Under the pieces are notes generated by a model that saw only the letters and a list, made by a program, of their open reading frames with translations, had not been told where the DNA came from and searched no databases. Shown here piece by piece: positions 36,669 through 57,559 of a stretch of DNA of 64,000 bases. Positions within the stretch are counted from its first letter, which is position 1. Every line of letters begins with the position of its first letter. Location of the stretch: NCBI RefSeq assembly GCF_014204715.1, contig NZ_JACHLY010000001.1:2139001-2203000 (forward strand), in the 5' to 3' direction. A program made the position numbers and the translations under genes. The DNA is from Streptomonospora salina (GTDB taxonomy: Bacteria > Actinomycetota > Actinomycetes > Streptosporangiales > Streptosporangiaceae).

Positions 36669-36680
36669 GGGCGGAGCGTC

Positions 36681-37808
36681 CTACGCCGGACCGGCGACGG
36701 CCGTATACGGTTCCGTGAGGTCCCGGTCTCCCGTGGACAGGGAAACGCCGTCCGTCTCCGTCGCGGTCGCGGTCTGCGGAGGCCAGGGCTCGGCGGAGGC
36801 TTCGAGCCCCCTCTTGACGGCTCCTTCGTCGAGTTCGAGAGCCTCTGCGAGGACGTGGAGCGCGAGGAGCGGGGGGACGGCGTTGCCGATCTGCTGCGCG
36901 ATGTCGCTCCCTCGCCAGGGGTAATCCGCCGGGAACGTCTGCAACTGTCCCGCTTCGGCGAACGTGAAGCGTCTGGGGAACCCGCCGCCCGTCGGCTCGA
37001 CCAGATTACGGAAGATCTTCCCGGTGACGGTCGAGGCCGGCTCGTCCGACCTGCGTCGTCCACGGGCTTTGGGGTCTCCGCCCGTCCCGTAGTTGGAGAC
37101 CACCTCGAACGGGCGACGGATACCGAGCGCCTTGCCCATGGGGACCCACTCCTCGCGCAGGCCGAAAGGATCCTCGCCCGAGACCCCTTTTCGGTATCGC
37201 GTGTGCGTCGGTTCGGGCATGGAGGCGGTCTTCCCGTCACGACGAGCGATCAGGACCGCACGCCGACGGGTCTGCGGCACCCCGTACTCTTCCGCACGCA
37301 GGATGCCGGTGACCACGGAATACCCTCGGATGGAGAGGTGCTCTGCCATCTCCTCCCAGACCGGGAGCGCTTGAGGAACCTGTTCGAGGACGATCGCCTG
37401 ATAGGGATCGCCCTCGTCATACGCTGCGAACGACCACCGCAAAGGCTCGAGAACCAGAGCCGTTCGTTCGTCGTCCAGCTTCGCCAGCTCCGTACGGACG
37501 TCCTCGCCGGCGGCCATCCGCCGAGCGAATCGGCGGACCTCCTCCAGGGCTCGACGCCCCTCACCACTGCCGGCGACGGTGTAGGTCTGACACGGCGGCC
37601 CGCCGGCCAGCACAGTGGCGTCCGGGAACCGTTTCGGGTCGAAGGAGCGTACGTCGCCTTGTTCGGTGCGGAGACGGGCCTCCTGCCGGGTAGCGCAGGC
37701 GTTCGGGTCCGCCTCGATTCCGACCGTCGACAGACCGAGCCAGTGCGCCGCCACATCGATTCCGCCCGGACCGGCGAAGAGATCGACGATTTCGACGGGG
37801 GGGTTCAC
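36681..37808 (-). CDS. DNA C5-cytosine methyltransferase (Dcm type), apparently active
   Basis: A 375-residue C5 methyltransferase. Ordered motifs: I VDLFAGPGGIDVAAHWLG, II/III with GIEADPNAC and GDVRSFDP, IV LAGGPPCQTYTVAGS with the catalytic Cys, VI LEQVP (Glu kept), VIII QTRRRAVLIA, a target-recognition region, then IX/X with LQTFPADYPW and QQIGNAVPPLLA. I chose the GTG at 37806-37808, with GGAGAG ahead; a GTG 31 codons earlier (37901) is the alternative. It is the last gene of the leftward defence operon and probably protects self-DNA. Confidence 0.9.
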   Translation of the reverse strand: MNPPVEIVDLFAGPGGIDVAAHWLGLSTVGIEADPNACATRQEARLRTEQGDVRSFDPKRFPDATVLAGGPPCQTYTVAGSGEGRRALEEVRRFARRMAAGEDVRTELAKLDDERTALVLEPLRWSFAAYDEGDPYQAIVLEQVPQALPVWEEMAEHLSIRGYSVVTGILRAEEYGVPQTRRRAVLIARRDGKTASMPEPTHTRYRKGVSGEDPFGLREEWVPMGKALGIRRPFEVVSNYGTGGDPKARGRRRSDEPASTVTGKIFRNLVEPTGGGFPRRFTFAEAGQLQTFPADYPWRGSDIAQQIGNAVPPLLALHVLAEALELDEGAVKRGLEASAEPWPPQTATATETDGVSLSTGDRDLTEPYTAVAGPA

Positions 37809-38067
37809 TGATCTCTCCTGGCTGCTCGGGGAAGCGGTTGGCGGTCGGGGCGGTGCTGCGACGGTCGCCTGCGCTTCCTCGGACTCCGTTGACGGACACA
37901 CGGTGTCGCTCCCGCCCCGGGTGACGCGGCGAGGACGGTAGTCCAGAAGATCATATACTCGCGGTTCGTCGCCGAATCCAGCGACCGCGGCTCAATGTAC
38001 ACCGAAGATCCGACCCCTGCCCACGCCACTCCACAGGCGGCGAGACGCACCCGCTCGCCGGTGGCGG

Positions 38068-38529
38068 TCACTCGTCGCCGGAAGCTTCGATGATCCCCGT
38101 GTAACGCTCGTATACGCGGACGGCGACGTCCTGGGGGTCCTCGTGCTCCCACGCGCGCAGTACCGTCCATCCGGCGTCCTCGAGGAGGCGGTCCGTCTGA
38201 CGGTCCCGATCGCGGTTCTTCTCGACTTTCGAGGCCCAGTATTCGGCGTTGGTCTTGGCACGGGTGTGGTGCTCCGGGCATCCGTGCCAGAAGCATCCGT
38301 CGAGGAACACGGCCAGTCGCGCGCGTGTGAAGACGAGGTCGGCCGTACGCCGCACCGAAGGGACGGGACGGTAGGCGACCCGGTAGCGCAGGCCCATGGC
38401 GTGAACCGCACGTCGAAGCGCGAGTTCGGGCTTGGTGTCCCGGCCCTTGTTCGACCGCATGCTGCGTCGAGTGCCGGCACTCGACGCCCAGGACCGTTCC
38501 CCGGCCTGCGATTCGGCGTGGTCGCTCAT
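38068..38529 (-). CDS. vsr: Very-short-patch-repair (Vsr) type endonuclease
   Basis: A 153-residue PD-(D/E)XK-fold nuclease. Family landmarks: the metal/zinc-fold start MRSNKGRDTKPELALRRAV, the catalytic Asp in RTADLVFTRARLAVFLDG, and the zinc/catalytic cluster CFWHGCPEHH. Vsr nicks T:G mismatches left when 5-methylcytosine deaminates and normally travels with a Dcm methylase, as here (259 bp upstream). The ATG at 38527-38529 was chosen; an ATG seven codons earlier is possible. It could instead act as the system's nuclease. Confidence 0.9.
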   Translation of the reverse strand: MSDHAESQAGERSWASSAGTRRSMRSNKGRDTKPELALRRAVHAMGLRYRVAYRPVPSVRRTADLVFTRARLAVFLDGCFWHGCPEHHTRAKTNAEYWASKVEKNRDRDRQTDRLLEDAGWTVLRAWEHEDPQDVAVRVYERYTGIIEASGDE

Positions 38530-38711
38530 CCGCTCCTGAACCCCATGCACGTATCGACCGCTTCGGATGCGGAGGCCCCGGCCCGCAGTCGCGTCGGCGG
38601 TATCCGCTGCTCGGACGGCGGCGCCTCGCGCCGGATATCCGGCAAGCTACCACTCCGCTTCCCTCGCGCCGCTACACGCACGGAGCTCGAAGGCGGGCAG
38701 CGGCCTCGGCA

Positions 38712-39587
38712 TCACGAGGGAACGTTCGACTCCTCCGGAGTCCGACCGCGCACGGAGGCCTCGGCGTAGAGCTCGTCCACGAGCGGCAGCAAGACCTCGA
38801 CCGCGTCCTCCGCGACCCGACCGTCGTCGGGTCCCTTCGGGAGGGAACCGTAGGGAAGGTAGATCTCGTCCGCCTCGTCCGTCCAATCCCGGTAGGCGCC
38901 GGTGTCGCGCGGGGAGTCCGGCGCCAACGCCTCGTACACCAGGGTGCTGCCCGCGGCGTTCACCGCCCTCGACAGGGCGTTGATCTCGCGTGTCTGCGCC
39001 AGCGAGCGCCGCTCGGCGAATCGGATCAACGCCTGGGCCATGGTCCGGTGGTGCACGAGGTCGAGCCGGAGGATGTTGTGGAAGAATTCCTGGTTCGTGC
39101 ACGCCTTCGCCACCGACCGGTAATCGTCGCCGTTGCGGAAGACCTCCGCCGCCCACCACAGGCGTGCGAAGGCCTGCGTGTGGTTGGGGCCGCGGAAACG
39201 GTCGCGGTTCACCGGCTTCGGCGCGCCGTCGGCGGTCGTGGCGCCCCATCGCCAACGGACGTAATCGGGGGCGACGAGCAGCGCGACGAAGTTCCACAGC
39301 TCGGTATCGGCGGCTTCGCTGCGGAGCAGGCGCAGCGACGCGTGCAACCGGGGAGCCAACCACGCGTCGGACTCCGTGGGGCTGGCGGCGAAACGGTCCA
39401 TGGCCGTCTGTACGACCTCGCGCACGGGGCCCGCCCGCAGGTCTCGGGAGGATCCGGGCGCGCGGCACGCCGCCGCGAGCGCCTTCTGGGGCGGGGCCTG
39501 CGCACCGAGCAGGACCTCCTCGGTCAGATGCCCGACCGCCTCCCGGTCCGGAAGTCGACCGATGTGTTCGGGCACCGCGCCGGTCAC
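38712..39587 (-). CDS. DUF6339-like protein of the defence operon
   Basis: A 291-residue, largely helical protein resembling the DUF6339 family found in actinobacterial methyltransferase/GHKL cassettes. Visible conserved-looking pieces are WNFVALLVAPDYVRWRW, FRGPNHTQAFARLWWAAEVF, NQEFFHNILRLDLVHHRTMAQAL and the acidic C-terminal VEVLLPLVDELYAE. No nuclease or ATPase motif is evident. The GTG at 39585-39587 has an AGGAGGGA site and overlaps the stop of the gene before (GTGA). Its function is unknown; the tight coupling says it acts with the GHKL ATPase. Confidence 0.6.
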   Translation of the reverse strand: MTGAVPEHIGRLPDREAVGHLTEEVLLGAQAPPQKALAAACRAPGSSRDLRAGPVREVVQTAMDRFAASPTESDAWLAPRLHASLRLLRSEAADTELWNFVALLVAPDYVRWRWGATTADGAPKPVNRDRFRGPNHTQAFARLWWAAEVFRNGDDYRSVAKACTNQEFFHNILRLDLVHHRTMAQALIRFAERRSLAQTREINALSRAVNAAGSTLVYEALAPDSPRDTGAYRDWTDEADEIYLPYGSLPKGPDDGRVAEDAVEVLLPLVDELYAEASVRGRTPEESNVPS

Positions 39588-40534
39588 TGTCCCTCCTTGC
39601 GGCTCGCTGCACGGATGAAGTCGCCGAGGCGACGGGGGAGTCTGGCTTTCCGGCCCGCCGCATACTGAACCCGCGCCTGCAGGTCTCCGCTGCCGCCGGC
39701 GAACCGGGCACGCGCCACCGTCTCGGCCAACGCGTCCTCGGGCGACATCTCGGGGAACACCTGCGGGAGCATCCGGCTCAGAACGTCCTCCGGCCATCCG
39801 CTCGGCCATTCCGGCCGCTCCCCGTGCATCGGCACGGTGTCCACCGCCGCGTCGAACAGCGCGGTCCAGCTCTCGACGGCGATCTCGGCGGCGAGCGCAG
39901 CGCGGGTGGCCTTGTCACGGCCGTGGAGCGTCTCCCGGAGGCCTTCGAACCCGCTGTTGAGGTAGACGACCGGCGCGTCGCCGCTGGTGTCGAGCGTCCA
40001 CGGCGCTTCCCGATACCGGTACAGGTAAGAGTCCTCGTCGGCTCCGAAGTCGACCCAGCAGGTGGTGACGGCCTCCTTGCGTGTGGGATCGGGCGTCTTC
40101 AGGTCGATCGTCCAGAACGGCGCGGCCGTCGCGATGGCCCGACCGCGGATCCCTCCGACGGTCGCGACGATCTGCCCGCTCAACCGGACCCGCCCCGTGT
40201 GGTCGGCACGCGCCAGCTCGGCCGTGCCGCGGAAGACGCCTTCTCCCGTCGGGGACAGAGGGGTGACGGTCCGTGTCCGGGTCGCCCGTTCCTCGAGTAC
40301 GGCTACGGCTTGCACGTCGCTCCACCGGTCGTCGCCGTGCAGTTGGGGCGCCTCCAACCGGATCGTGAACGACGCGCGCCGCCAGTCGCCGAACTCGGTC
40401 CGTTCGAGCGCCACCGAACGGTCGTCCTCGGATATCGCCCGTCGGGAGAGTGCGACGCCGTCGATGGCGGCATTCTCGACGGCGAGCGACACCGTCCCGG
40501 GAAGTCGGGGGTAGGGGACCAGCGTCGTCGTCAC
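39584..40534 (-). CDS. Unknown beta-rich protein coupled to the GHKL ATPase
   Basis: A 316-residue protein I do not recognise. The first 200 residues look like beta-sandwich domains (SLAVENAAIDGVALSRRAI; RASFTIRLEAPQL; GRVRLSGQIVATVGG). The last 110 are helical and end in a basic segment (GRKARLPRRLGDFIRAASRKEG) that could bind DNA. It overlaps both neighbours by 4 bp (GTGA at each end), so equal amounts of the three proteins are probably made. In MORC-type modification operons a protein in this position is usual, but no activity is known to me. Confidence 0.6.
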   Translation of the reverse strand: MTTTLVPYPRLPGTVSLAVENAAIDGVALSRRAISEDDRSVALERTEFGDWRRASFTIRLEAPQLHGDDRWSDVQAVAVLEERATRTRTVTPLSPTGEGVFRGTAELARADHTGRVRLSGQIVATVGGIRGRAIATAAPFWTIDLKTPDPTRKEAVTTCWVDFGADEDSYLYRYREAPWTLDTSGDAPVVYLNSGFEGLRETLHGRDKATRAALAAEIAVESWTALFDAAVDTVPMHGERPEWPSGWPEDVLSRMLPQVFPEMSPEDALAETVARARFAGGSGDLQARVQYAAGRKARLPRRLGDFIRAASRKEGQ

Positions 40535-42594
40535 ACCGCCTCCTTGGCGCGCCGCAGCTCCACCTCGACCTCCGCCATGGCGGCGGCGACCGGGTGGCTC
40601 GTCACATCGGTCTCGCCTTCGAACCGCGCGGTCCGGGAACCGGGCTCGAACACCAGGCGCCCGTCCTCGGCGACCTCGCAGCCGCTCTCCGGCGTGAGAC
40701 CGGCCCAGTCCGCCACCGCGTGCGGTCCCGAACGGGTCACGAACTTCAGCACGGGTACGCCGTGCCAGGGGTCCTCGCGGGCGGGCAGCTTCACCGTGAC
40801 CCGCACGCGCCAGGCGCCGTCGGGGAGGATCTCGCCGTCCAGCGCATCCACGGTGGGATACTTCGGGCTCTGCGGCTTCTTTGGCCGGGTCAGGTCGAGC
40901 ACGTCCCGCAGTTCGGCCGGCCCTTCGTCACGCGTGTCGGGAGCGGGCCGGTGCAGGATGCGGCGGATCTCCGCGGTCATGGCGCGGCCGAACTCCTCGA
41001 TCCTGGAGATCGCGCCCCGCGCATAGGTGGAGACGAGGTCGTCGGTCTTGCGCCAGTCGTCATGGTCGGGCGGTTCGGCCGTGCGCAGGAACCGTTCGGC
41101 CGCCGCGGTGGCGTCGTCCGGCTCGCGGACCGCTCCCCCCGCGAGCAGGACCGCCTGGAACCGAGGTGCGCCCATCGGCACGTCGGTGACCTTCCGGTCC
41201 GCGACCACCATGCGACTGCCGCGCATGGTCACCAGCCGGTTGGTCTTCTCTTCGCGCTCGTCGGCCTCCGTCAGAAGCAGCACGGCCCGGTGTTCCGTCT
41301 GCGCGCCTCCGCCCTCCTTAAGCGGGGGGACGCGGAGCGGCACGGTGCTTTGCACCACCGACTGCGAATCGGTCGGTTCGGACACGGTCCCGCCGTCGTA
41401 GTAAACGCGCAGCGCCCGTGCGCGCGAAGGCTCGGCCAGGTAGGGGTCGACGGGCTCTTCCGGAACCACCGCTTCGCCGTCGCGGAACGCCGCGACCGAG
41501 GCCTCCAGCGTGGGTCGGCCGCCGCCCGGCGCGATCATGGCCGCCCAGAAGTTGCGACCGACGGCCTCCGCCAACCTGTTCCGCATCTCCTCGAGATCGC
41601 CAGCCTCTCCGACGGATTCTTGCACACCCACGACCAGGAACGATGTTCCGGGAGCGCTGCTCGATCGGGTCAGAAAGAGATCCTCCGTGATCACCGGATC
41701 CGCCCACCAGGAACGCGCCGCGTCGCGTGCGGCGTCCGGAACGCCCAACCACGCCGGTCCGGCCCACTCGCCTTCCGCGGTGCGATGCCAGGGCAGGTCG
41801 AGTCGGCCGACGAGTCGGCGTTCGCTGCGTCCTCCGTGGGGTTCCGACAACGTGCTGTTGATCAACACGGTACCGAGGCGACTGGCCGCCCACAGCGTCG
41901 CCTTGCCCAATCCGTACGTGCCACCGGCCGAGCCGGTCTTACGGCTGTCCAGCTGGCGACGTACGACGGCGGCGAAGCGTCCGTCTTCGTACTCGTCGCC
42001 CGTAAGCCCCGACGCGTTGTAGTCGTCGATACGCAGCAGCACCAAGCGCTCCTTGTGGCGGAGCTCGGCCAGACCGTCCCCCAACACGCGCCCGACCTTC
42101 TGCCCTGAAGCCGCGGCCGCATCGAGGTGAGGTTCGATCGACTCCCAACGCAGGGCTTCGAGGAACCGCTCAAGACGCCGCCCGGAGATCTCGTTCAGCT
42201 CGTACCGGACCCGGACCGGTTCATCCGCCACATAACGTTCGTCGAGACTGTTCTGCGTGGCCTCACGCGCCAACACCGCCAGATCCGACTCGAAGGCGAA
42301 CGCTGCGGCGTTGCCCAGCTCGCGTCCTCCGTCGGCGTGGGCGGGGCGGTGATACCAGGTCAAGTCCGACGAACGATCGGCGGCGTCGACTTGAAGCGCA
42401 TCCGGCCCGGGTTCGAGTCCCAGAAAGATCTGGATCGCCTGCAGTTTGTCGATGCGAGGTTGGACTCTGCCCGAGATCCACGAGGAAACGGCAGCCCTGG
42501 TCACACCGAGTTCGGCCGCCAGATCGGCTTGGGTCGTTCCTCTGCGACTCAGCTGGCGCCCCAGCCACTCGCCGAACTCCATGGCGTCGGCCAT
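40531..42594 (-). CDS. XRE-HTH fused to GHKL (MORC/MutL-like) ATPase
   Basis: A 687-residue protein. Residues about 10-60 are a Cro/CI HTH (MEFGEWLGRQLSRRGTTQAD; TRAAVSSWISGRVQPR). Residues about 100-350 are a GHKL ATPase: the N-box LAREATQNSLDER at 108-120, a D-box RIDDYNASGLTG, and the glycine lid SAGGTYGLGKATLWAAS. The C-terminal 300 residues may be an S5-like and adaptor region. Bacterial MORC-type ATPases with this order of motifs belong to restriction-modification clusters. The HTH domain suggests it also represses its own promoter at 42627-42648. The start is ATG 42594, or GTG 42597. Confidence 0.8.
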   Translation of the reverse strand: MADAMEFGEWLGRQLSRRGTTQADLAAELGVTRAAVSSWISGRVQPRIDKLQAIQIFLGLEPGPDALQVDAADRSSDLTWYHRPAHADGGRELGNAAAFAFESDLAVLAREATQNSLDERYVADEPVRVRYELNEISGRRLERFLEALRWESIEPHLDAAAASGQKVGRVLGDGLAELRHKERLVLLRIDDYNASGLTGDEYEDGRFAAVVRRQLDSRKTGSAGGTYGLGKATLWAASRLGTVLINSTLSEPHGGRSERRLVGRLDLPWHRTAEGEWAGPAWLGVPDAARDAARSWWADPVITEDLFLTRSSSAPGTSFLVVGVQESVGEAGDLEEMRNRLAEAVGRNFWAAMIAPGGGRPTLEASVAAFRDGEAVVPEEPVDPYLAEPSRARALRVYYDGGTVSEPTDSQSVVQSTVPLRVPPLKEGGGAQTEHRAVLLLTEADEREEKTNRLVTMRGSRMVVADRKVTDVPMGAPRFQAVLLAGGAVREPDDATAAAERFLRTAEPPDHDDWRKTDDLVSTYARGAISRIEEFGRAMTAEIRRILHRPAPDTRDEGPAELRDVLDLTRPKKPQSPKYPTVDALDGEILPDGAWRVRVTVKLPAREDPWHGVPVLKFVTRSGPHAVADWAGLTPESGCEVAEDGRLVFEPGSRTARFEGETDVTSHPVAAAMAEVEVELRRAKEAV

Positions 42595-42626
42595 CACATA
42601 CTCCCGTGCACGTCAGAGCCGATATG

Positions 42627-42648
42627 TTGACACATTTTCCACTGTCAA
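42627..42648 (-). promoter_or_regulatory. Promoter/operator of the leftward defence operon
   Basis: TTGACA-N10-TGTCAA is an inverted repeat. On the minus strand its TTGACA (42648-42643) is a consensus -35, with a weak CATATC -10 about 16 bp on and the GHKL gene 25 bp further. A dimeric XRE protein bound here would cover the -35 and spacer. Confidence 0.55.
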
Positions 42649-42758
42649 ACTCCGATTGCCCTCGAAGCCTACATGCAGCGCGCCACCACGGTTACCGCTG
42701 CGATATCGTCGCCGCCCACACGAGGGAATACTGCATACCGGATCGGCAAACACACTCA

Positions 42759-42794
42759 ACGTGTCCGATTGTTCACCGGAGTAATCGGAACACG
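42759..42794. promoter_or_regulatory. Inverted repeat in the defence-island control region
   Basis: CGTGTCCGATT (42760-42770) and AATCGGAACACG (42783-42794) are complementary with a one-base bulge and a 12-nt spacer. It lies about 27 bp upstream of the candidate rightward -35, so it is a possible second regulator site. Confidence 0.4.
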
Positions 42795-42820
42795 CTTGTG
42801 ATAAGGGTTTTCCCATTCGA

Positions 42821-42850
42821 CTGACACGGCAGTGGCGACCGTGCTAGGTT
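42821..42850 (+). promoter_or_regulatory. Candidate promoter of the rightward defence operon
   Basis: CTGACA (42821-42826), an 18-bp spacer and TAGGTT (42845-42850) match the actinobacterial vegetative promoter form. Transcription from here would leave a leader of about 365 nt before the first gene, including the hairpin at 42906-42927. Confidence 0.45.
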
Positions 42851-42905
42851 GTGCGAACTCCGAATCGGGCGGAACAGATCTCCGCCCGTATAGGCCAACG
42901 TGTGT

Positions 42906-42927
42906 CTACGCACGCACTCGTGCGTAG
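42906..42927 (+). promoter_or_regulatory. Leader hairpin CTACGCACG-N4-CGTGCGTAG
   Basis: A perfect 9-bp stem with a 4-nt loop lies in the predicted 5' leader of the rightward operon, about 50 nt after the expected transcription start. It could be a DNA operator or an RNA control element. No U-tract follows, so simple termination is less likely. Confidence 0.45.
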
Positions 42928-43223
42928 GCCCGTCGTCGCATCCCCCCGCTTTCCATTCGTTTCGACGGGATACGATCCTCCGGCGCGCAAGCATTCGTCA
43001 CACCGTCCGCGAACGGGCGCGCCGCCGCATGCTCGCTGTGTCCGCCCTTCCGAACCGCCTGCCCCACGGGCGCTCCGGACCGGTGCGCCCGTCCGAACGC
43101 CCGAGCCGTCACCGGGAACGCACCGAAAAACAAGAGTTGAAAGCACCTCGCCTCACCCCGGCCCCGCTCAGCCGGACAGTCGTTTTCTCTATTCCCACCC
43201 CCGCTAGAGAGTCCAGTCTTTTC

Positions 43224-47870: not shown

Positions 47871-49729
47871 CGGCACCTGCCCACGACGCGCCGGCGCTCA
47901 CCGACGAACAGAACGCCGTGGTGGAGCAACCGGTCGACGCCCTGACGCTGGTGACCGCGGCGGCCGGATCCGGCAAGACCCACACCCTGATCCGTCGACT
48001 CGGACGGCTCGTGGAACGCGGCGACGTCGCTCCCCGCGACGTCCTGGCCCTCAGCTTCTCCCGGGCGAGCGTCCGCGAGCTGCGTCGACGCCTGACCGGC
48101 TACGGCGACGCCGGCCATGTGCGTGCGCAGACTTTCGACTCGTGGGCCCTCGACCTGTTGATGCAGGTGAAGGCCGACCAGGACTGGCGATCGGCGTCCT
48201 TCGACGAGCGGATCCGCGAAGCCGCGAAGGCGCTGGACGACGGGCTGGCCGACGATCTCTACGAGGACCTGCGCCACGTCGTCGTCGACGAGGTGCAGGA
48301 CCTGATGGGCGAACGCAGAGAGCTGGTCCGGACCCTGCTCGAACGCTTCGACTGCGGGTTCACCGTGGTCGGCGATCCCGCTCAGGCCATCTACGGATTC
48401 CAACTGGAGGACACCGCCCGACGGGCCGGCGAGACCAACCGGTTCTTCGACCGGCTCCGATCCACCTTCGCCGAGGAACTCGTCGAGCTGCACCTCACCC
48501 GGAATTTCCGAGCCGCCACCGACGAGGCACGGCTCGCTCTCCCCCACGGGCCGGCGCTGCGCACCGGAGCGGAGCAAGGGGGAGGCGGCGACGACCTCTA
48601 CGAGACGCTCCGCAGTGAGCTGCGGAGCGCCCTGCCGGTCGGGAAACTCGAAGACGACCACGTCGTGGACCACGTGGCCGACCCGGACGGCACCGCCGCG
48701 GTGCTGTGCCGCACGAACGGCCAGGCGCTGCTGGTCTCGTCGCGTCTGCATTCCGCCGGTGTCGCTCACCGCCTCCAGCGCGGCGCCCAGGACCGGGCGG
48801 CCCCGGCCTGGCTGGCCCGGTTCTTCGCGCCCGAATCCGGACCGACGCTCACCCGGGAGTCGTTCGACGCGGTGCTCGCCGAACACGCCGACGCGGCCGT
48901 CGACCCGGACACGGCGTGGCGCGCGCTGGCGTCGACGGCGGCCGGACGGACCGGGCGCACCGTCGACCTCCGGCGACTGCGGGACGCCGTGTCGAACGGT
49001 CTCCTGCCCGACGAACTCGCCGCCGCCCCGCCGGCCGCCGTGGTGGTCTCGTCCTTCCACCGGGCCAAGGGCCTGGAGTTCGACCGGGTCGTCGTGGCCG
49101 ACCCGGGGCCGCTGCGCGAGGCCCCCGAGATCGACGCCGCCGAGGAGGCGCGCGTGCTGTACGTGGCCATGACGCGCTCACGCACGGAGCTGCTGCGGAT
49201 GGACCCGGTCGATTCCCGCAGGGTCGGTCTCCACCAGGGGACACGACGGTGGCAGCGCTACGGTTTCAAGAACTGGCAACGGTTCGGGATGGAGTCGACC
49301 GCAGACGACGTACACGCCGACGACCCGGCGGGAACGGCGGAGTTCACCGACGATCCCCACGGACTCCAGCGATACCTCTCCACCGAGGTGTCGGCGGGCG
49401 ACCCGATCGTACTCGACCGCGTCTGCGACGAATCCCTGGAAGACCGGGAGAGCCCGCCGTATCTGGTCCGGCACGCGGGCCGACCGATCGGCATCGTCTC
49501 CGAACGGTTCCGCCGCGACCTGTACCGCGTGCTCAACGTGAACCGGGGATTCGTGCCCCGGAACTTCCCCTACGAGATCACGGACGTACGCGTCGACACG
49601 GTCGAGACGGTCACCGGTAGCCCGGCTGCGGGCAAGATCGCCGGACTGGGCGACCACGGCGTGTGGACGGCCCCGCGCCTGACGGGGCTGGGGCGTTTCC
49701 ACTTCCGACGCGAGGAGGCCGACGAATGA
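47867..49729 (+). CDS. UvrD/Rep-like SF1 helicase of the defence operon
   Basis: A 620-residue SF1A helicase, shorter than UvrD (about 720). Motifs: I TAAAGSGKTHTL (about 30-41), Ia LALSFSRASVRELRRR, II VVVDEVQDLMGER with DEVQD at 141-145, III VVGDPAQAIYGFQ, IV LHLTRNFRA, V SSFHRAKGLEFDRVVVADP and VI EEARVLYVAMTRSRTELL. Subdomains between them are compressed. The last 150 residues are a unique tail (RYLSTEVSAGDPIVLDRVCD). It has 4-bp overlaps with both neighbours. Helicases of this kind process ends or single strands in nuclease-helicase defence systems. Confidence 0.85.
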   Translation: MTAPAHDAPALTDEQNAVVEQPVDALTLVTAAAGSGKTHTLIRRLGRLVERGDVAPRDVLALSFSRASVRELRRRLTGYGDAGHVRAQTFDSWALDLLMQVKADQDWRSASFDERIREAAKALDDGLADDLYEDLRHVVVDEVQDLMGERRELVRTLLERFDCGFTVVGDPAQAIYGFQLEDTARRAGETNRFFDRLRSTFAEELVELHLTRNFRAATDEARLALPHGPALRTGAEQGGGGDDLYETLRSELRSALPVGKLEDDHVVDHVADPDGTAAVLCRTNGQALLVSSRLHSAGVAHRLQRGAQDRAAPAWLARFFAPESGPTLTRESFDAVLAEHADAAVDPDTAWRALASTAAGRTGRTVDLRRLRDAVSNGLLPDELAAAPPAAVVVSSFHRAKGLEFDRVVVADPGPLREAPEIDAAEEARVLYVAMTRSRTELLRMDPVDSRRVGLHQGTRRWQRYGFKNWQRFGMESTADDVHADDPAGTAEFTDDPHGLQRYLSTEVSAGDPIVLDRVCDESLEDRESPPYLVRHAGRPIGIVSERFRRDLYRVLNVNRGFVPRNFPYEITDVRVDTVETVTGSPAAGKIAGLGDHGVWTAPRLTGLGRFHFRREEADE

Positions 49730-52700
49730 CCGGAACGAACGAGCTGGAGGCGCACTACGCCTTCCGCGACGATCTCGCACGACGGCTGGAAGCCGATCTC
49801 CTCGGCCCGGTCGGGGACCCGCACGAGACCCTCGACGAGGAGCCCGCCACCGCCTACATCACCGGCGTGCTCTACCCCGAAAGACGCGACGGCGAGGCCG
49901 AGCGCACCCATCGCGAAGAGCAGGAGGAACCCCCCGCGTCGGCGCAGATGACCGTCGACGAAGCCCACGACAGCGGCGTCGCCATGGCGAACCGCCAGCG
50001 CCCGTCGGCGATGGGCCTCACGTTCGCCGTCGATCCGAGCCGGGCCCGGCGGGTCACGGTGACGGTCTCGGCGGCCGTCTACGAGCCGATCGACGAGAAC
50101 GACCGGCCGGTCGCGGCGCGGCGTGCGGAACGCCGCGGGCTCGACGAACGGCACACCACGCGGTGGCGTCGCCGACCCCTGACGTTCGATCCCGTCGAGG
50201 TCGACGTCGACCGCCCCCACAGTCACGACGAGCCGATCGACGGGGAACGCGGGATCCGGCTGCGCCTGACCGTGCGGGAGCCGGACGGCAACGGCGACGT
50301 CTCGGTGACGGCCACCCTCGTCAACGCCGCCGAGGCCCACGACGAAGAACTGCTCGACGCCCGCTGCCTCTTCCAGCCTCAGCTGCGCGTCGACGCTCCC
50401 GAGGAGTCCGAGGCGCTGGTCGACCGTCGCCGCCCCGAAGGAGCGGAGGAACGCGAACGCCTCGTCAACGACCTGCTGCACCGGCACGCTCCCACGTTCG
50501 CCACCGGCCACGGGTGCTCGGTCACGTGGAACTGGACCCCTCCGCCCGCGCGCGGGGTCCACGGCCACCGCCGTGCGGCCACCGACGCGGTCTGGACGAC
50601 GTTCGTGCCCACCTCCGAGGTCCTTCAGGCCCGATCCAACCCGGACGTCGCCGAACCGAGGATGATGTGGCTGGCCGAAGCCCCCGACGATCAGGTCCTG
50701 GATCGCCTGCAACAGATCGTCGACGCCTACCGCGAATGGATCGCCGACCGCTCGGCCGAAGCCGACTCCCTGTCCGACACCGCGTTCGGGACGGTCGCCC
50801 GCGAGCAGCTCGACGCCTGTTCCGCGGCCTACGGCCGAATGAGCGAGGGAATCGCGACCCTGCGCGACGATCCCGTCGTGTTCGAGGCGTTCCGGATGGC
50901 CAACGAGGCCATGGCCCACCAACGCGCCCGCACGGCGTGGAGAAACGACGGCGCGCAGGGCGAACCGTCGCTCCGGCAGGGACGCTGGCGGCCGTTCCAG
51001 ATCGGCTACATCCTGCTGTGTCTGAACGGGATCGCCGACCGCGGTCACGCCGACCGCGCGGTCGCCGACCTGCTGTGGTTCCCGACCGGCGGCGGCAAGA
51101 CGGAAGCGTACCTGGGGCTGATCGCCCTGACGACGTTCCTGCGCCGGCTGCGTTCCCCGGACGACGGCGGCGGCGTCACGGTTCTGATGCGTTACACGCT
51201 GCGGTTGCTGACGCTTCAGCAGTTCGAGCGTGCGTCCACGCTCATCTGCTCCATGGAGCGCATACGCCGACTGCGCCGGTCGGAGTTGGGTGAGGAACCG
51301 GTTTCGATCGGGATGTGGGTCGGCAAGGCGGCCACCCCGAACAAGGTCGAGAACGCGGAGAAGAGCCTGCGGAAGCTGCGCAAAGAGGGCAAGATCCAGA
51401 CGGAGAACCCGGTACAGCTCACCTCGTGCCCGTGGTGCGCCACGCCGATGGACGCCGGGGACTACGAAGCCGACCGCGAAACGAAACGGATGCGGATCCG
51501 GTGCCGCAGCAGCGAGTGCGACTTCGCCGATGGGCTGCCCGTGCACGTCGTCGACGAGGAGATCTACCGGGTGCGGCCCACCCTCGTCATCGCCACCGCC
51601 GACAAGTTCGCCCAGATCGCCTGGCGGGAGAACGTGTTCGCACTGTTCAACCGCGCCGGCGGCGAACACGCGCAGGCGCCGCCGCCGGAGCTCGTCATCC
51701 AGGACGAGCTGCATCTGATCTCGGGGCCGCTCGGAACACTGGCCGGCCTGTATGAGACCGCCGTCGACATCGCCGCGGAACGTCCCAAGGTGATCGCCTC
51801 CACCGCGACCATCCGCCGAGCTCAGGAGCAGGGAAAGCTCCTGTTCGACCGCCGTGTCGAGCAGTTCCCGCCGTCCGGCCTCGACGCCCGTGATTCCTGG
51901 TTCGCGGTCGAAGCGCCGCGCGAGGCCAAGGGGGCGCGCCGCTATGTCGGGGCGTTGGCGCCCGGCGCCAGCCAGGCGACGCTGCTGATCCGCACCTACG
52001 CGGCGCTGCTGCACAACGCGTACCGGGCGGAGGCCGATCCCGCGGTCCGCGACGCCTACTGGACGCTCATGGGCTACTTCAACAGCCTGCGTCTGCTTTC
52101 GGCGGCGGAATTGCAGGTCTACGCCGACGTCGACGAACGCCTGGAGCAATTGGCGAGCCGCGACGGGTCCCGACGACGCCGTGTGGACGAGTTGCGGGAG
52201 CTCACCAGCCGCGTCGACTCCAGCGACATCCCGGACCATCTCGGCGATCTCTTCCGTGCGCTGGACTCCGGCACCGCCGTCGACGTCGTGCTCGCCACGA
52301 ACATGATCTCGGTGGGCATGGACGTGGACCGGTTGGGGCTCATGGCCGTGATGGGCCAGCCGCAGACCACCGCGGAGTACATCCAGACGACGAGCCGCGT
52401 CGGCCGGCGCGACCCCGGCCTGGTGGTGACGATGCTCAACGCGGCCCGTTCCCGCGATCGCTCCCACTACGAGGACTTCGTGTCCTACCACTCGGCTCTG
52501 TACCGGCAGGTGGAGTCGACCAGCGTCACCCCGTTCTCGCCTCGGGCCCGCGACCGTGCGCTGCACGCAGTTCTGGTGGGGCTGGCCCGCCTCACGCTGC
52601 CGACGGCACGTCCCGACGACGGGGCCAACAAGGTCGAACGGTTCGTCGAGGATCTGAACGGACTCAAAGAGCGGATCCTGCGCCGTGTGGCGTCGATCGC

Positions 52701-52947
52701 CCCCGAAGAACACGCCGAGACGCGCGAGGAGCTCGACACGTTCATCGACGGCTGGCGCGACCTGGCCCAGACCAATCCCGGGCTGCGCTACGAAGCTCGG
52801 CGCAAATCCCGGCCGGGCGATGTCCGTTCCCCCGACGAGGCTCTGCTCAGCAACTACGGCTACGACGAGGACCTGCGGGAGTCGGCGCCGACGATGATGA
52901 GCCTCCGCGACGTCGACGTCGACTCCGACCTCTACCTGGAGACCTGA
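49726..52947 (+). CDS. drmA: DISARM-type helicase DrmA-like
   Basis: A 1073-residue SF2 helicase of DrmA/MrfA-related type. A 400-residue N-terminal region precedes the motor. Motifs: WFPTGGGKTEAYLGL (about 451-465), a zinc ribbon inserted between motifs (CPWC 568-571; CRSSEC 593-598), DELH in VIQDELHLISG (660-663), ASTATIRRA, VVLATNMISVGMDVDRLG and the arginine motif QTTSRVGR (about 887-894). The length fits DrmA of DISARM. It is coupled to the UvrD-like gene by ATGA and followed one base later by drmB, as DrmA-DrmB pairs are. Confidence 0.85.
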   Translation: MTGTNELEAHYAFRDDLARRLEADLLGPVGDPHETLDEEPATAYITGVLYPERRDGEAERTHREEQEEPPASAQMTVDEAHDSGVAMANRQRPSAMGLTFAVDPSRARRVTVTVSAAVYEPIDENDRPVAARRAERRGLDERHTTRWRRRPLTFDPVEVDVDRPHSHDEPIDGERGIRLRLTVREPDGNGDVSVTATLVNAAEAHDEELLDARCLFQPQLRVDAPEESEALVDRRRPEGAEERERLVNDLLHRHAPTFATGHGCSVTWNWTPPPARGVHGHRRAATDAVWTTFVPTSEVLQARSNPDVAEPRMMWLAEAPDDQVLDRLQQIVDAYREWIADRSAEADSLSDTAFGTVAREQLDACSAAYGRMSEGIATLRDDPVVFEAFRMANEAMAHQRARTAWRNDGAQGEPSLRQGRWRPFQIGYILLCLNGIADRGHADRAVADLLWFPTGGGKTEAYLGLIALTTFLRRLRSPDDGGGVTVLMRYTLRLLTLQQFERASTLICSMERIRRLRRSELGEEPVSIGMWVGKAATPNKVENAEKSLRKLRKEGKIQTENPVQLTSCPWCATPMDAGDYEADRETKRMRIRCRSSECDFADGLPVHVVDEEIYRVRPTLVIATADKFAQIAWRENVFALFNRAGGEHAQAPPPELVIQDELHLISGPLGTLAGLYETAVDIAAERPKVIASTATIRRAQEQGKLLFDRRVEQFPPSGLDARDSWFAVEAPREAKGARRYVGALAPGASQATLLIRTYAALLHNAYRAEADPAVRDAYWTLMGYFNSLRLLSAAELQVYADVDERLEQLASRDGSRRRRVDELRELTSRVDSSDIPDHLGDLFRALDSGTAVDVVLATNMISVGMDVDRLGLMAVMGQPQTTAEYIQTTSRVGRRDPGLVVTMLNAARSRDRSHYEDFVSYHSALYRQVESTSVTPFSPRARDRALHAVLVGLARLTLPTARPDDGANKVERFVEDLNGLKERILRRVASIAPEEHAETREELDTFIDGWRDLAQTNPGLRYEARRKSRPGDVRSPDEALLSNYGYDEDLRESAPTMMSLRDVDVDSDLYLET

Positions 52948-52948
52948 A

Positions 52949-54817
52949 ATGGCCTTGCGCTCCGACAAGAACACCGGCGGCGAGAAGACGCCGACCTTCC
53001 AGCGGCTCGGCGCGGTCCGACGGACGCAACTGATCACCACCTATGGCGTCGGGGCGATGATCGCCCTCGGTGATCAGTCCTACCTCGTCAGCGGTTTGGA
53101 CGGTTGGAGAGTCGGCCGAGATCCGGATATACACGAGTTCCGGCTGCAGACCCGGTTGGGGATGCGGAAGGGCTTCTATCTGCCTCCGGCCGCCGATCCG
53201 CCGGCCGGCGACGGCGTTCGGATCCGCCGGTTCCCCGACATGTACACGTGCCCGGGGAAAGACGCGCGACCGGACACGGGGTGCGACGAGAACCTGCGTC
53301 GCTACGGCGCGTTCAACCCGAAACCCGGCTCGACGGCGTGCGCGTCCTGCGACGAACCGTTGACACCGTCGCGGTTCATCGTCGCCTGCGAGCGCGGGCA
53401 CCTCGACGACTTCCCCTATGAAGCGTGGGTCCACGGCAGACCGTTGCGCGCGAACGAGAGATCCGGACATCGGCTCTCGTACCGCTCCACCGGCCGCACC
53501 GCGGCCCTGCGGTCGATCGTCGTGGGGTGCTCGTGCGGGGAGGAGGCGTCGATGGAAGGCGCCTTCGGACGCGGTTCCCTGGCCAGCGTCAACTTCCGCT
53601 GTTTCGGCAAGCGTCCGTGGCTGCCCCGCGGATCCGACGAGGAGTGCGGTCTGACGCCCCGCACGATGCAGCGAGGCTCGTCGGCGGCCTGGTTCCCCGT
53701 CGTCCGGTCGGCCCTGTCCATCCCGCCGTTCTCCGAGGAGCTCTACGAGGAGCTGCTCGTCCCCGGTCGCTACGACCAGTGGAAAGGCGAGGACGACGGG
53801 CTCATCAGGCGCCTCGCGGAGAAAGCCGGTCTGGTCCCCGGCCGGTTCGAGGCGGACGACGTCGTGGAGGCCGTTCGCCACTACGAGGCCTACGAGGCGG
53901 GTGAACGCCCCGACCCGTCCGTGCTCACCGGTTTCGAACCGTCCGACGTCCTTCGGGAGGAAGAATACAGACAGCTCGACCGCGAATCGGACACGCAGCA
54001 CTTCCAGACGAAGCGTCCCCACGAGCTGCCGGACGCCCCCGCTCCCCCCGGCATCGCGGGCACGATGCTCGTCACCCGCCTCCGCGAGGTCCGGGCGCTG
54101 CAGACGTTCACGCGGGTGGACCCGCCCATGGAGGGCGACTCCGAAGACCGGCTCGCCGCCCTGAGCCGTGACGACGTCGGATGGTTGCCCGCCGTCGAAG
54201 TCGTCGGCGAAGGCGTCTTCCTGCGCCTGTCCGCGGACCGGATCGCGGAATGGACTGCGCCCGCCCCCGGGCTCACGGCGGGGCCGGAGGAACGTGCGGC
54301 GTCGATCCGGCGACACCACCAGGAGCTGCTGAACCAGCGTGCCCACCGTTCGAAGCGCCAGTCCCCGTCGTCGCAGGTCGACGCGCGTTTGCTGCTGGTG
54401 CACACGCTTGCGCACGCGCTGATCAACGAGTGGAGCCTGGACGCCGGCTACCCGGCGTCGGCCCTGCGGGAGCGCCTCTACGTGTCCGAGGACATGGCCG
54501 GTGTGCTGATCTATACCGCCAGCAGCGACTCCGCCGGAAGCTTGGGCGGCCTGGTGAGCCAGGGCGAGCCGCGGCGCCTGCGACGTTCGCTCGCGTCGGC
54601 GCTGCGCCGGATCTCGTGGTGCTCGGCCGACCCGCTGTGCATGGAGTCGGAGGCGTCGGGCGTCGACAGCCTCAATCTCGCCGCATGCCACGCGTGCATG
54701 CTCGTGCCCGAAACGAGCTGCGAGCTGAACAACGACTTCCTGGACCGGGCCATGCTGATCGGCACGCCGGACAAGACGACGCAGGGGTTCTTCGAAGAAT
54801 TCATGTCCGCCCTCTGA
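52949..54817 (+). CDS. drmB: DrmB-family protein (DUF1998)
   Basis: A 622-residue DrmB protein. The N-terminal part has a zinc cluster (MYTCPGKDARPDTGCDENL; ACASCDEPL; FIVACERGHLDDFPYE). The C-terminal DUF1998 domain is complete: LLLVHTLAHALINEW, YTASSDSAGSLGGLV, CSADPLC, CHACMLVPETSCELNN and LDRAMLIG. In DISARM, DrmA and DrmB form a complex that binds free 5' ends of incoming DNA. It starts one base after the drmA stop and ends the rightward operon, converging on the degenerate methyltransferase gene. Confidence 0.9.
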   Translation: MALRSDKNTGGEKTPTFQRLGAVRRTQLITTYGVGAMIALGDQSYLVSGLDGWRVGRDPDIHEFRLQTRLGMRKGFYLPPAADPPAGDGVRIRRFPDMYTCPGKDARPDTGCDENLRRYGAFNPKPGSTACASCDEPLTPSRFIVACERGHLDDFPYEAWVHGRPLRANERSGHRLSYRSTGRTAALRSIVVGCSCGEEASMEGAFGRGSLASVNFRCFGKRPWLPRGSDEECGLTPRTMQRGSSAAWFPVVRSALSIPPFSEELYEELLVPGRYDQWKGEDDGLIRRLAEKAGLVPGRFEADDVVEAVRHYEAYEAGERPDPSVLTGFEPSDVLREEEYRQLDRESDTQHFQTKRPHELPDAPAPPGIAGTMLVTRLREVRALQTFTRVDPPMEGDSEDRLAALSRDDVGWLPAVEVVGEGVFLRLSADRIAEWTAPAPGLTAGPEERAASIRRHHQELLNQRAHRSKRQSPSSQVDARLLLVHTLAHALINEWSLDAGYPASALRERLYVSEDMAGVLIYTASSDSAGSLGGLVSQGEPRRLRRSLASALRRISWCSADPLCMESEASGVDSLNLAACHACMLVPETSCELNNDFLDRAMLIGTPDKTTQGFFEEFMSAL

Positions 54818-54884
54818 GCGCGGACTGCGGTCCTCGCCGGCGGGACCCGGCCACGGGCCCCGCCGGGAACGTCGGTACCGGCTT

Positions 54885-55862
54885 TCACCGCTCCAACGCC
54901 CGGGCGATGCTCTCGCCCATAATCGTGGCCAACGGAGGCGGAAACGCGTGGCCGATCTGTCGGTACCGCGCCGTTTTGCGGCCGGTGATCGTCCAGTCGT
55001 CGGGGATCCCCTGAAGGACGGCCGCCTGGTCGGCGGTCAGTTTCGGCAGTCCCGCGCGGTCCTTCGTGCCCTCTCCGGCCCGAAGCTCGAAGTCGGGTCC
55101 CGGGACGTCGTCGGCGATACTGTCGCCGTTGACGCCGAGCCGGGCCCAGGCGGCCTTCGACCGGCTCGGGCCCAGGTCCGCGCCGCCGCGGTCACGTGAA
55201 CCGCCGACGATCGTGGGGGCGATACCGTCGGCGATCCGGCGCCATTCGGCGGCGTAGGGCCAACCTCGGCTCGCCATGGACGACCACAGGACCTCGCCCA
55301 CGGTTCGGGCGCCGGGCGCCGGTTCGGGCCAGCGGAAGCGGCTCATGTCGTCGGGACGCATCGCCACCAGCACGCTGTAGGGCCGGCGTTGGTGAACCCC
55401 GAACTCCCGCGCGTCCAGGATTCGCCAGTCGTAGGCGTAGCCGAGGTGTTCCAGCTCTTCCCGCACGAATTTCCGTGCGTCCTCGAACGTGGACTCCGTC
55501 AGGAGCCTGGGGACGTTCTGGAGCATGAGCGCGCGCGGCTGGACCTCACCGGCCAGCCAGATCGACTGCCGAAGCAGGTCCCGGGAGTCGCCGGCCCCCT
55601 TTCCGCGTCCCGCCTGCGAGTACGGGACGCTGGGCAGCCCTCCCGCAAGGAGGTCGACATCCAGAATCTGCGGGTGTTCCGCGCCCACCAGATCGGCCAC
55701 GTCCATCTGTCGGACGTCCCAGTTCGGACGGTTGGCGCGCAAGGTCGCGCACGCGTGCGGGTCGTCGTCGACGAGCATGACCGGTTCGAACCCGGCCCGC
55801 TCCAGTCCGCACGCCTGTCCACCCGCTCCCGCGCATATCTCCAGACTGCGGAGACTCACCAC
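54885..55862 (-). CDS. Degenerate C5-methyltransferase homologue lacking the catalytic Cys
   Basis: A 325-residue protein with the C5-methyltransferase fold: motif I SLEICAGAGGQACGLERAG, VDDDPHACATLRANRP, VIII EFGVHQRRPYSVLVAM, a short recognition region, QGIPDDWTITGRK and X IGHAFPPPLATIMGE. Motif IV, normally GGPPCxPFS, reads LAGGLPSVPYSQAG, so the nucleophilic Cys is Ser. Motif VI ENV reads QNV. Both catalytic residues are therefore changed. It may bind SAM and DNA without methylating and could act as a specificity or decoy subunit. It faces drmB with 67 bp between stops, like a DrmMII-type gene in place. Confidence 0.85.
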   Translation of the reverse strand: MVSLRSLEICAGAGGQACGLERAGFEPVMLVDDDPHACATLRANRPNWDVRQMDVADLVGAEHPQILDVDLLAGGLPSVPYSQAGRGKGAGDSRDLLRQSIWLAGEVQPRALMLQNVPRLLTESTFEDARKFVREELEHLGYAYDWRILDAREFGVHQRRPYSVLVAMRPDDMSRFRWPEPAPGARTVGEVLWSSMASRGWPYAAEWRRIADGIAPTIVGGSRDRGGADLGPSRSKAAWARLGVNGDSIADDVPGPDFELRAGEGTKDRAGLPKLTADQAAVLQGIPDDWTITGRKTARYRQIGHAFPPPLATIMGESIARALER

Positions 55863-56091
55863 GTCGCTCCCGGCATCCGTCCGGTCGTCGCCTGCGTGCC
55901 GTCGTGGGAAGGGGGGTCCGCAATCATGGACTTCAGCATCGTAGCCCGCACGGCGCTACGCAACGGCGCCGCATACGCCGGCACTGCTCGGCCCAGACGC
56001 GGCTTCCGGGCATCGGGCTCGGCCCCGTCCCGACCGTCGGGTATCACGGCGCCAGCGGCCACCCGTGCGGGACGAACGTCTCACCCCACAG

Positions 56092-56495
56092 TCACGCCTC
56101 GATACCGGCCGCGGGGTAAGGGATCGTTCCCGAAGGAAGCCGCCTGGCGTCGGTCCAGACCAGTTTTCCGTACTTGTGGGGCTCCGCGTTTACGGGCTCG
56201 CCCCACCACTCCTCGGTGAGGAAGAACAGTCCGAGGCGCGCCAGGTCGGCGTCTTGGCGGTGGTGGATCGTGGCGAGGAGGCGCAGCAGGTCGGGGTCGA
56301 CGCCGACCCCGACCTCCTCGCGGGCTTCGCGAGCCGCCGCGTGGTGGGCGGGTTCGCCCTCGTCCAGATGCCCGGACGGCAGGTGCAGTATGCCGTCGCA
56401 GTAGCCCCCGTGCCTTGGCGCTCCAGCAGGAGGATCTCCCGGCCACGGAGCAGGATCACGTGAACGTCGACGATGCTGCGGTAGCGCTCGGGCAT
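56092..56495 (-). pseudogene. NUDIX hydrolase gene with a one-base frameshift
   Basis: Translation from ATG 56493-56495 (GAGGGGA site) gives MPERYRSIVDVHVILLRGRE then ILLLERQGTG. Moving one base at the run of five G near 56411-56415 gives GYCDGILHLPSGHLDEGEPA with a perfect NUDIX box, GHLDEGEPAHHAAAREAREEVGV, and a natural end at 56092. One added G would restore a 134-residue hydrolase that cleaves nucleoside-diphosphate derivatives. Either a recent mutation or a homopolymer sequencing error explains this. It lies directly downstream of small-protein cassette copy 3. Confidence 0.8.
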
Positions 56496-56526
56496 GCGGT
56501 CCCCTCGGTCAACGGACGTCCGCCCC

Positions 56527-56826
56527 TCAGGTCGCAGGCGGCTCGCGGGAGATGTAGGCGCCGTCGCCGGCCCGGTCGAACCGCGACCGCACCCACGACG
56601 ACGACAGCAGCGACGGCCGACAGGCGCGAGTCGGGGGTTCCTCCAGCTCCTGGACGAACGCCTCCACATCCGGGTGGACGACCGTAGGCGCGTGGCCGGC
56701 CTCAGGGTCCCGGGCGGTGGCGATCCACAGGTTCTCGGTGCGCCGGATGTTCCACCGGGCGCCGTAGCGGGCCTTCAGCATGGCCAGCAGAGCCGCATCG
56801 CCATCCGGCGCATCCACCCCGATCAC
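56527..56826 (-). CDS. Small conserved protein, cassette copy 3, second gene
   Basis: A 99-residue protein clearly paralogous to the product of 63641-63928: MLKARYGARWNIRRTENLWIA, then an acidic APTVVHPDVEAFVQELEEPP, then SLLSSSWVRSRFDRAGDGAYIS. The GTG start overlaps the stop of the preceding gene. A weaker likeness in the RW-x-IR core links it to the third genes of cassettes 1 and 2. No function is known; it is probably a small cytosolic partner protein. Confidence 0.7.
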   Translation of the reverse strand: MIGVDAPDGDAALLAMLKARYGARWNIRRTENLWIATARDPEAGHAPTVVHPDVEAFVQELEEPPTRACRPSLLSSSWVRSRFDRAGDGAYISREPPAT

Positions 56827-57200: not shown

Positions 57201-57302
57201 GTCATCAGCTCCTACTCAGCTGGTGGCCGCGCCCCCGGACGCCTTGCCCGCGTCGCGGGGGTCTGTACTGCCTCACAGCTTTCCTCGAATCAGCATCGCG
57301 CA

Positions 57303-57347
57303 AAAGTGTTGCCCCGTTTCTTACTCGTAGAAGACAACGGGCAACAC
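57303..57347 (-). terminator. Rho-independent-type terminator (minus strand)
   Basis: GTGTTGCCCCGTT (57306-57318) and AACGGGCAACAC (57336-57347) pair with one bulge, and on the minus strand the stem is followed by TTTT. It lies in the 359-bp gene-free stretch 57201-57559 and would stop transcription from the XRE gene before cassette copy 3. Nothing else was recognised in that stretch. Confidence 0.65.
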
Positions 57348-57559
57348 GCCACTACGAGAAACCGAACGTCAGGGCGCACTATGCCGCGGGCTACCTCTCT
57401 CGCTTCATTTCGGATAAATCGACCTTCGATCGATGTGGCGATACGCTGATGACGCATTAAGCGCAGAAGCGGAATCGGTGACCTGGACTCGGCGATGAGT
57501 TGCGACCATGAGCAAATCGAAGGCGAAACGACCGGCTATGCCCAACAGCCGAGTCGCGC

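Follow-up and report, generated by a model that had tools for sequence, protein, structure and literature searches.

A candidate defence island of Streptomonospora salina in which a divergent DrmAB arm is joined to a GHKL cassette and a methyltransferase homologue without its catalytic cysteine

Do the two divergent gene arms of a ~20 kb island in Streptomonospora salina form one system or two neighbours, and why is a methyltransferase homologue without its catalytic cysteine encoded among them? The stretch analysed (hereafter the window) is 64 kb long and corresponds to positions 2,139,001 to 2,203,000 of contig NZ_JACHLY010000001.1. Ten proteins are encoded between window positions 36681 and 55862, among them DrmA, DrmB and two C5-methyltransferase homologues (MT1 and MT2). 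A preliminary description had named a DISARM-like core merged with a MORC/GHKL methylation module; all of its named genes were recovered on the strands given, and its GHKL, Vsr, DUF6339 and C5-methyltransferase calls agree with Pfam, NCBIfam and PADLOC profiles. The answer favoured here, tentatively, is that the island is one co-inherited restriction system based on 5-methylcytosine (5mC) and built of two modules, with the dead methyltransferase and the GHKL cassette as reader and switch. The features are as follows.

36671..56531, no strand: whole island, delimited by the synteny break against the sister genome G002
36681..37901, minus strand: MT1, C5-cytosine methyltransferase with motifs PPCQ and EQV intact (PF00145, 2e-30; PADLOC MTase_II, 2e-77; motif alignment)
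38068..38550, minus strand: Vsr-family PD-(D/E)xK nuclease (TIGR00632, 128 bits, above cut-off)
38712..39584, minus strand: DUF6339 protein, homologue of PDC-M33C (PF19866, 51 bits, above cut-off; PADLOC PDC-M33C, 5e-10)
39584..40534, minus strand: middle protein of the cassette, positional counterpart of PDC-M33B (AlphaFold2 model, predicted local distance difference test (pLDDT) 77)
40531..42597, minus strand: fusion of an XRE helix-turn-helix (HTH) domain with a GHKL (paraMORC-like) ATPase, homologue of PDC-M33A (HTH_3, 3e-10; PDC-M33A, 4e-22)
42598..43220: divergent intergenic region, 623 bp
42627..42660, plus strand: operator-like array TTGAC-N12-GTCAA-N7-TTGCC, adjoining the XRE-GHKL start
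43221..47870, plus strand: giant protein with an N-terminal sacsin-type GHKL-like domain and a C-terminal RadD-like superfamily 2 (SF2) helicase (NF047352, 63 bits; ResIII, Helicase_C; PADLOC label TmtA, 5e-44)
47867..49729, plus strand: UvrD/GajB-like superfamily 1 helicase, Walker A and B present (PF00580, 8e-27; GajB, 5e-28)
49723..52947, plus strand: DrmA helicase, short form (NF038325, 1028 bits, cut-off 950; start uncertain, reading frame opens at 49663)
52949..54817, plus strand: DrmB, MZB/DUF1998 protein (NF038324, 454 bits, cut-off 240; PF09369)
54885..55862, minus strand, converging on the right arm: MT2, C5-methyltransferase homologue without the catalytic cysteine (GGLPS), motif VI QNV, motif X GHAFPP (PF00145; motif alignment)

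Recurrence and inheritance of the two arms

A scan of bacterial and archaeal genomes for DrmA returned 26 loci and was then extended with further genomes; samples were partial, with at most about 300 genomes per search, and several loci end at contig ends (L024). The same divergent order, XRE-GHKL facing helicase-UvrD-DrmA-DrmB, was found in 13 actinomycete loci of about 11 genera (Planomonospora, Streptosporangium, Sphaerisporangium, two in Actinomadura, Planotetraspora, Streptomonospora, two in Herbidospora, Nocardiopsis, Yinghuangia, genome G334 and the window). On their left side lie XRE-GHKL, the middle protein and DUF6339, and the loci also hold Vsr and two C5-methyltransferase homologues. 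XRE-GHKL was present in 5 of 100 relatives, four times within the block, and each of the 11 genomes with a named locus has a single copy, always adjoining the right arm. Across the 13 loci, which are related and thus include species history in the signal, protein distances of XRE-GHKL correlate with those of the giant helicase, DrmA and DrmB at 0.90–0.94 (Mantel p ~2e-4), no lower than the values within an arm; the same test gave 0.6–0.7 for MT2 and only 0.3–0.5 for Vsr.

Synteny with the nearest relative, G002, extends up to window position 36670 and resumes at 56532, with only 1.1 kb between these points. The sister species G001 carries a different insert at the same chromosomal site (L151, 930–10108), encoding a DruM-like C5-methyltransferase and an SNF2-type helicase, which suggests that the site is a defence hotspot. 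Given the absence of the block in one relative and the other insert in the second, the island is gained or lost as a single block at a variable site. The 13 recurrences, the matching divergence of the arms and the absence of the block as a unit from G002 argue strongly against repeated chance juxtaposition. The treatment of both arms as one unit in the preliminary description is borne out by the same 13 loci, which also exclude the opposite outcome it had named, that homologous loci would never have the two arms side by side. As it had also proposed, neither a named system nor a publication was found to describe the whole gene set. Immediately to the right of the island, window positions 56532–58585 hold small open reading frames (ORFs) and an XRE/regulator-like ORF, which are kept in G002; the part of G002 that corresponds to 56532 onward has a second, paralogous match at 63657–63901.

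Another explanation, that a DrmAB-type system with its own methyltransferase and a standalone cassette of the PADLOC candidate type PDC-M33 stand side by side and became linked in one lineage, is somewhat unlikely. It can draw on right arms that occur without XRE-GHKL, in Mycolicibacterium, Arthrobacter, Pseudarthrobacter, Sinomonas, G028, G055_C51 and a second Planotetraspora copy, all with the giant helicase and DrmAB, most with the UvrD-like gene and mostly with an active methyltransferase. The cassette likewise occurs with other cores (MzaBC in G055_C62, NERD-helicase/DrmAB in G169 and G325, and type II restriction-modification or class 2 DISARM on plasmids). Two independent systems are nevertheless difficult to reconcile with an order kept in 13 divergent loci, with between-arm distances that correlate as tightly as those within arms, and with the sole XRE-GHKL copy of 11 genomes lying beside the right arm.

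Gene starts were picked by homology. The giant GHKL-SF2 protein most likely begins at the ATG at 43221, where its homologues begin, rather than at 42900, and the GTG start of the DUF6339 gene overlaps the stop of the preceding gene, that of the middle protein. Comparison with homologues identified the ORFs at 37805–38653 and 38647–39711 as shadow frames of the true Vsr and DUF6339 genes.

MT2 and the loss of the catalytic cysteine

The preliminary description placed the second C5-methyltransferase homologue in the correct family but overlooked that its catalytic cysteine is absent. MT1 retains both the Pro-Cys of motif IV and the acidic residue of motif VI; in MT2 of the window, Pro-Ser aligns with the Pro-Cys of M.HhaI. 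Ser, Arg or Ala (PS, PR or PA) replaces the catalytic Cys in 18 of 18 MT2 homologues, which are 47–70% identical to the window copy. Motif X lacks its Asn, and motif I, part of the S-adenosylmethionine-binding region, is kept. Among the nearest relatives of these homologues in other actinomycete genomes, which are 42–52% identical to the window protein, 23 keep the Cys and nearly always the Asn, and a maximum-likelihood tree unites the 18 dead sequences in one clade (support 96/91). Third codon positions account for most of the divergence of MT2, just as they do in DrmA and DrmB, and MT2 is therefore under purifying selection. MT2 appears to be a conserved pseudo-methyltransferase, which is new here, as is the conserved operator upstream of XRE-GHKL described below.

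The dead enzyme follows the left cassette. MT2 was found in all 16 loci with XRE-GHKL and in none of the 10 DrmAB loci without it (Fisher 2e-7, relatedness ignored). Each of the 16 also has an intact C5-methyltransferase, of at least three types overall, which MT2 directly adjoins in most loci. In G181 (L132, 15847–17691, plus strand), a single 614-residue ORF combines DUF6339 with a dead C5-methyltransferase domain in a Z1-DUF4420-GHKL-Vsr locus. This fusion points to MT2 acting with DUF6339, and the link of MT2 to DUF6339 and the GHKL cassette suggests that what it reads could be passed to an ATPase switch.

Alternatively, MT2 could be a bacterial counterpart of DNMT3L, assisting the active methyltransferase allosterically and raising or directing methylation without gating restriction. 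Its position beside an intact enzyme in most loci and its preserved motif I would fit such a partner. Across the MT2 tree the active enzyme falls into three or more types, which is the reason for the lower ranking of this explanation; moreover, G028, G112 and G114 have a right arm only, served by the same active type, and carry no MT2, and the known fusion of MT2 is to DUF6339, not to a methyltransferase. A DNMT3L-like role is thus distinctly unlikely. C5-methyltransferases in which the cysteine is substituted can still bind their sites, and a dead methyltransferase is therefore a plausible site reader, as the favoured single restriction system proposes. In its most specific form, a pseudo-methyltransferase would have been recruited as a reader of methylation state, recognising unmethylated sites without modifying them and deciding DNA destruction via a DUF6339 and GHKL switch that can be moved between motors (DrmAB, MORC-Z1); this is possible but doubtful.

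A portable GHKL cassette and its operator-like array

The label of a MORC/GHKL methylation module is only loosely right. The GHKL type itself holds, with the conserved XRE-GHKL motifs EATQNSLDE, DDYNASGLTG-type and GGxxGLGKA-type, and the top Foldseek match of its predicted model is the SMCHD1 ATPase module (2.8e-5), the only, overall likeness used from a model of low confidence (pLDDT 63; below 50 around 196–299). From the profile matches and gene order, the left three-gene core appears to be a divergent form of the PADLOC candidate PDC-M33, itself without a name, which recurs beside many 5mC-based restriction systems. The middle protein has no PADLOC match; its tentative assignment follows from its position, from a length similar to that of proteins matching PDC-M33B, as several plasmid middle proteins do in PADLOC, and from a weak tblastn link to the haloarchaeal copies (2e-11). 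Its AlphaFold2 model has an N-terminal beta-sandwich and a helical C-terminus, for which Foldseek and VIA-align against the PDB gave generic beta-sandwich matches only (Z ≤7.3), none convincing, and sequence searches found no solved structural relatives for it or for DUF6339. A literature search on DUF6339, PDC-M33, TmtA and inactive C5-methyltransferases in phage defence, with subscription papers outside its scope, found nothing on point.

The cassette appears to be portable: it also adjoins type II restriction-modification, class 2 DISARM and MZA/Z1 cores, and a C5-methyltransferase is present in nearly every case. In G055:C62 (L089/L090), the left cassette and a dead MT2 adjoin MzaB (MORC) and MzaC (Z1), not DrmAB. 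G169 and G325 encode an XRE-GHKL homologue fused to a complete sigma-70 factor; in L096 (10969–14565, minus strand) and its G325 equivalent, the N-terminal sigma-70 part (regions 2, 3 and 4; PADLOC MzaA match) is divergent from an arm of NERD-helicase, a different DrmAB and UvrD. In G197 (C3:24762–42318; L137/L138), a Z1-GHKL-middle protein-DUF6339-active methyltransferase array adjoins DrmB-DrmA-UvrD, apparently a case in which a DUF6339 cassette and a DrmAB arm were paired independently. GHKL, middle protein and DUF6339 were also found in this order on plasmids of Halomicrobium, Haloplanus, Halobaculum, Halobacterium, Synechococcus, Planococcus, Arthrobacter and Deinococcus. The neighbours of these plasmid cassettes are class 2 DISARM and a C5-methyltransferase in the first three (L143, L144 and L145), a C5-methyltransferase in Synechococcus, an AlwI-type restriction endonuclease, Vsr and a C5-methyltransferase in Planococcus, a type II restriction endonuclease, Vsr and dcm in Arthrobacter, and a C5-methyltransferase and Vsr in Deinococcus. 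All the C5-methyltransferases beside the plasmid cassettes have an intact Pro-Cys. Halomicrobium urmianum has two copies of the PDC-M33-type cassette adjoining class 2 DISARM, and the Haloplanus and Halobaculum loci also carry SprT-like and ATP-binding (GHKL) genes, with a PADLOC REase_II match in Haloplanus. Free-standing HTH proteins were suspected in the small genes that precede the cassette in Planococcus and Arthrobacter, an idea rejected because Pfam gave no support.

A portable cassette beside so many unrelated 5mC-based restriction systems, in Archaea and Bacteria alike, could also act as a guard or backup, killing or arresting the cell if a phage inhibits the restriction system. In none of the three cassette proteins (DUF6339, middle protein, GHKL) was a toxin-like domain recognised, and such a guard is very unlikely.

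The arms do diverge from one region (42598–43220), as the preliminary description had it, but the conserved element within it adjoins the left promoter and follows XRE-GHKL even where the right arm is lacking. The 13 homologous intergenic regions carry related arrays with the consensus TTGAC-N12-GTCAA-N7-TTGAC just upstream of XRE-GHKL. TTGAC-N12-GTCAA and GTCAA-N7-TTGAC are exact in 9 and 10 of the 13 regions respectively (shuffled maximum 2), and by inspection the others have variants with spacings of 11, 13 or 14 or altered half-sites. Exact two-half-site patterns number 20 in 8.7 kb of intergenic DNA versus 2 in 528 kb outside. The window array, in which the third half-site is TTGCC, differs from the consensus by 1 mismatch and is the sole match in the 64 kb, against an expectation of 0.04 when up to 2 mismatches are allowed; it lies ~30 bp from the XRE-GHKL start, and the right-arm start is several hundred bases off. 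In G055_C62, with no DrmAB adjoining, the array is still kept with XRE-GHKL. Most simply, the array would be the site at which the XRE domain autoregulates its gene; the predicted fold of this domain is similar to C.BclI and other repressors. Part of the signal could be promoter, given the likeness of TTGAC to a –35 element.

The array at this promoter, the likeness of the XRE domain to C.BclI and other repressors and the sigma-70 fusion of the same protein in G169 and G325 would also suit a left arm that is mainly a transcriptional control module. Like a control protein, it would repress its own operon, and perhaps also the motor arm, or set the timing of their expression, so that self-restriction is avoided at establishment, with GHKL sensing a signal. 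That explanation is unlikely: it leaves the dead methyltransferase, DUF6339 and the middle protein unexplained, the array is far from the helicase start, and homologues of XRE-GHKL outside actinomycetes have no HTH in Pfam.

Methylation-gated restriction and known systems

The favoured restriction system draws on gene content, shared inheritance, presence or absence as a unit, loss of the cysteine in 18 MT2 proteins under purifying selection, co-occurrence of MT2 with the cassette, the DUF6339 fusion and the array. In a class 1 DISARM studied elsewhere, unmethylated DNA activates DrmAB and 5mC lowers the ATPase activity of the complex (PMC9142583). By analogy, MT1 would mark host DNA and so protect self, and the right arm, comprising DrmA-DrmB as in DISARM, the UvrD-like helicase and the giant GHKL-SF2 helicase, would be a motor attacking unmarked DNA, presumably that of phages. 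Walker motifs were found in all three of these helicases. Vsr is the likeliest nuclease, as DrmC is lacking and no other nuclease was recognised in the island. The left cassette and MT2 would form the reader and switch: MT2 may bind its target sites without methylating them and report their methylation state via DUF6339 to the GHKL ATPase, whose signal would license or restrain the motor, and the XRE domain would bind the TTGAC/GTCAA array beside its own gene and autoregulate the left operon.

Several observations weigh against this proposal. The main difficulty is that MT2 is constant across loci whose active methyltransferases have been exchanged among three or more types. This fits poorly with MT2 reading the site of the active enzyme; MT2 may instead read a structural or shared feature. 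No dead methyltransferase accompanies the haloarchaeal, Bacillota, Synechococcus or Deinococcus cassettes, or those of G100 and G197, and in some settings the cassette therefore does without MT2. Because right arms also stand by themselves beside an active methyltransferase, reader and switch are accessory. The co-inheritance of Vsr is poor, and its role may simply be the repair of deaminated 5mC; the XRE-GHKL model is of the low confidence given above (pLDDT 63).

The DISARM-like core stands in part, as DrmA and DrmB are genuine, adjacently encoded and above their NCBIfam cut-offs, but it consists of DrmAB only. No DrmC phospholipase D-type nuclease was found among the ten island proteins (Pfam, PADLOC), whose genes fill the interval, and no DrmD or DrmMI in the island (PADLOC, Pfam, NCBIfam). 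There is likewise no DrmE match, and both MT1 and MT2 score far better against other methyltransferase families than against DrmMII (PADLOC). A complete class 1 DISARM with drmD, drmMI, a long drmA, drmB and drmC lies elsewhere in the same genome (C1:3832206–3845979; L060), its DrmD and DrmMI at G000:C1:3838922–3845979. DrmC has been reported to be dispensable and is frequently absent (PMC9142583), making its lack alone weak evidence, but because drmD, drmE and drmMI are also lacking and the companion genes differ too, the island is not canonical DISARM.

DrmAB and the anonymous PDC-M33 cassette, defence components that are listed separately, are brought together by the island as a single heritable unit. 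The cassette itself repeatedly accompanies 5mC-based restriction, in Actinomycetota, Haloarchaea, Cyanobacteriota, Deinococcota and Bacillota. A dead C5-methyltransferase in a restriction island offers a testable answer to how marked and unmarked DNA are discriminated, and together with PDC-M33 provides a gene-level handle for annotating many hypothetical proteins.

Compared with DISARM of classes 1 and 2 (Ofir et al., 2018; PMC9142583), the island shares adjacent DrmA and DrmB families and a C5-methyltransferase in the locus, but lacks DrmC, DrmD, DrmE and DrmMI, has a short DrmA, and adds the sacsin/GHKL-SF2 helicase, the UvrD-like helicase and the PDC-M33-type cassette. ARMADA, BRIGADE, TALON and uncharacterised DISARM-like classes (PMC12458937) likewise pair a YprA-like helicase with a UvrD/GajB-like helicase, in ARMADA with a Vsr-type nuclease domain; unlike these, the island has separate DrmA and DrmB, a free-standing Vsr, and neither a BrxHII helicase nor a PglX-like methyltransferase. 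PDC-M33 (A, B and C) has the GHKL protein, middle protein and DUF6339 in identical order, whereas here XRE is fused to GHKL, the middle protein is strongly diverged, and a divergent DrmAB arm and a dead C5-methyltransferase accompany the cassette. MORC/paraMORC restriction systems (Iyer, Abhiman and Aravind, 2008; PMC2292703) and MZA also combine GHKL ATPases with SF2 helicases, C5-methylases and Vsr nucleases, but there is no Z1 helicase in the window, and the core helicases are DrmA and the GHKL-SF2 fusion. Finally, MT2 is a possible prokaryotic parallel to DNMT3L and other pseudo-methyltransferases, sharing a methyltransferase fold without the catalytic residue in the presence of an active enzyme, but it is bacterial, restriction-linked, and tied to the GHKL cassette and DUF6339, not to one type of active enzyme.

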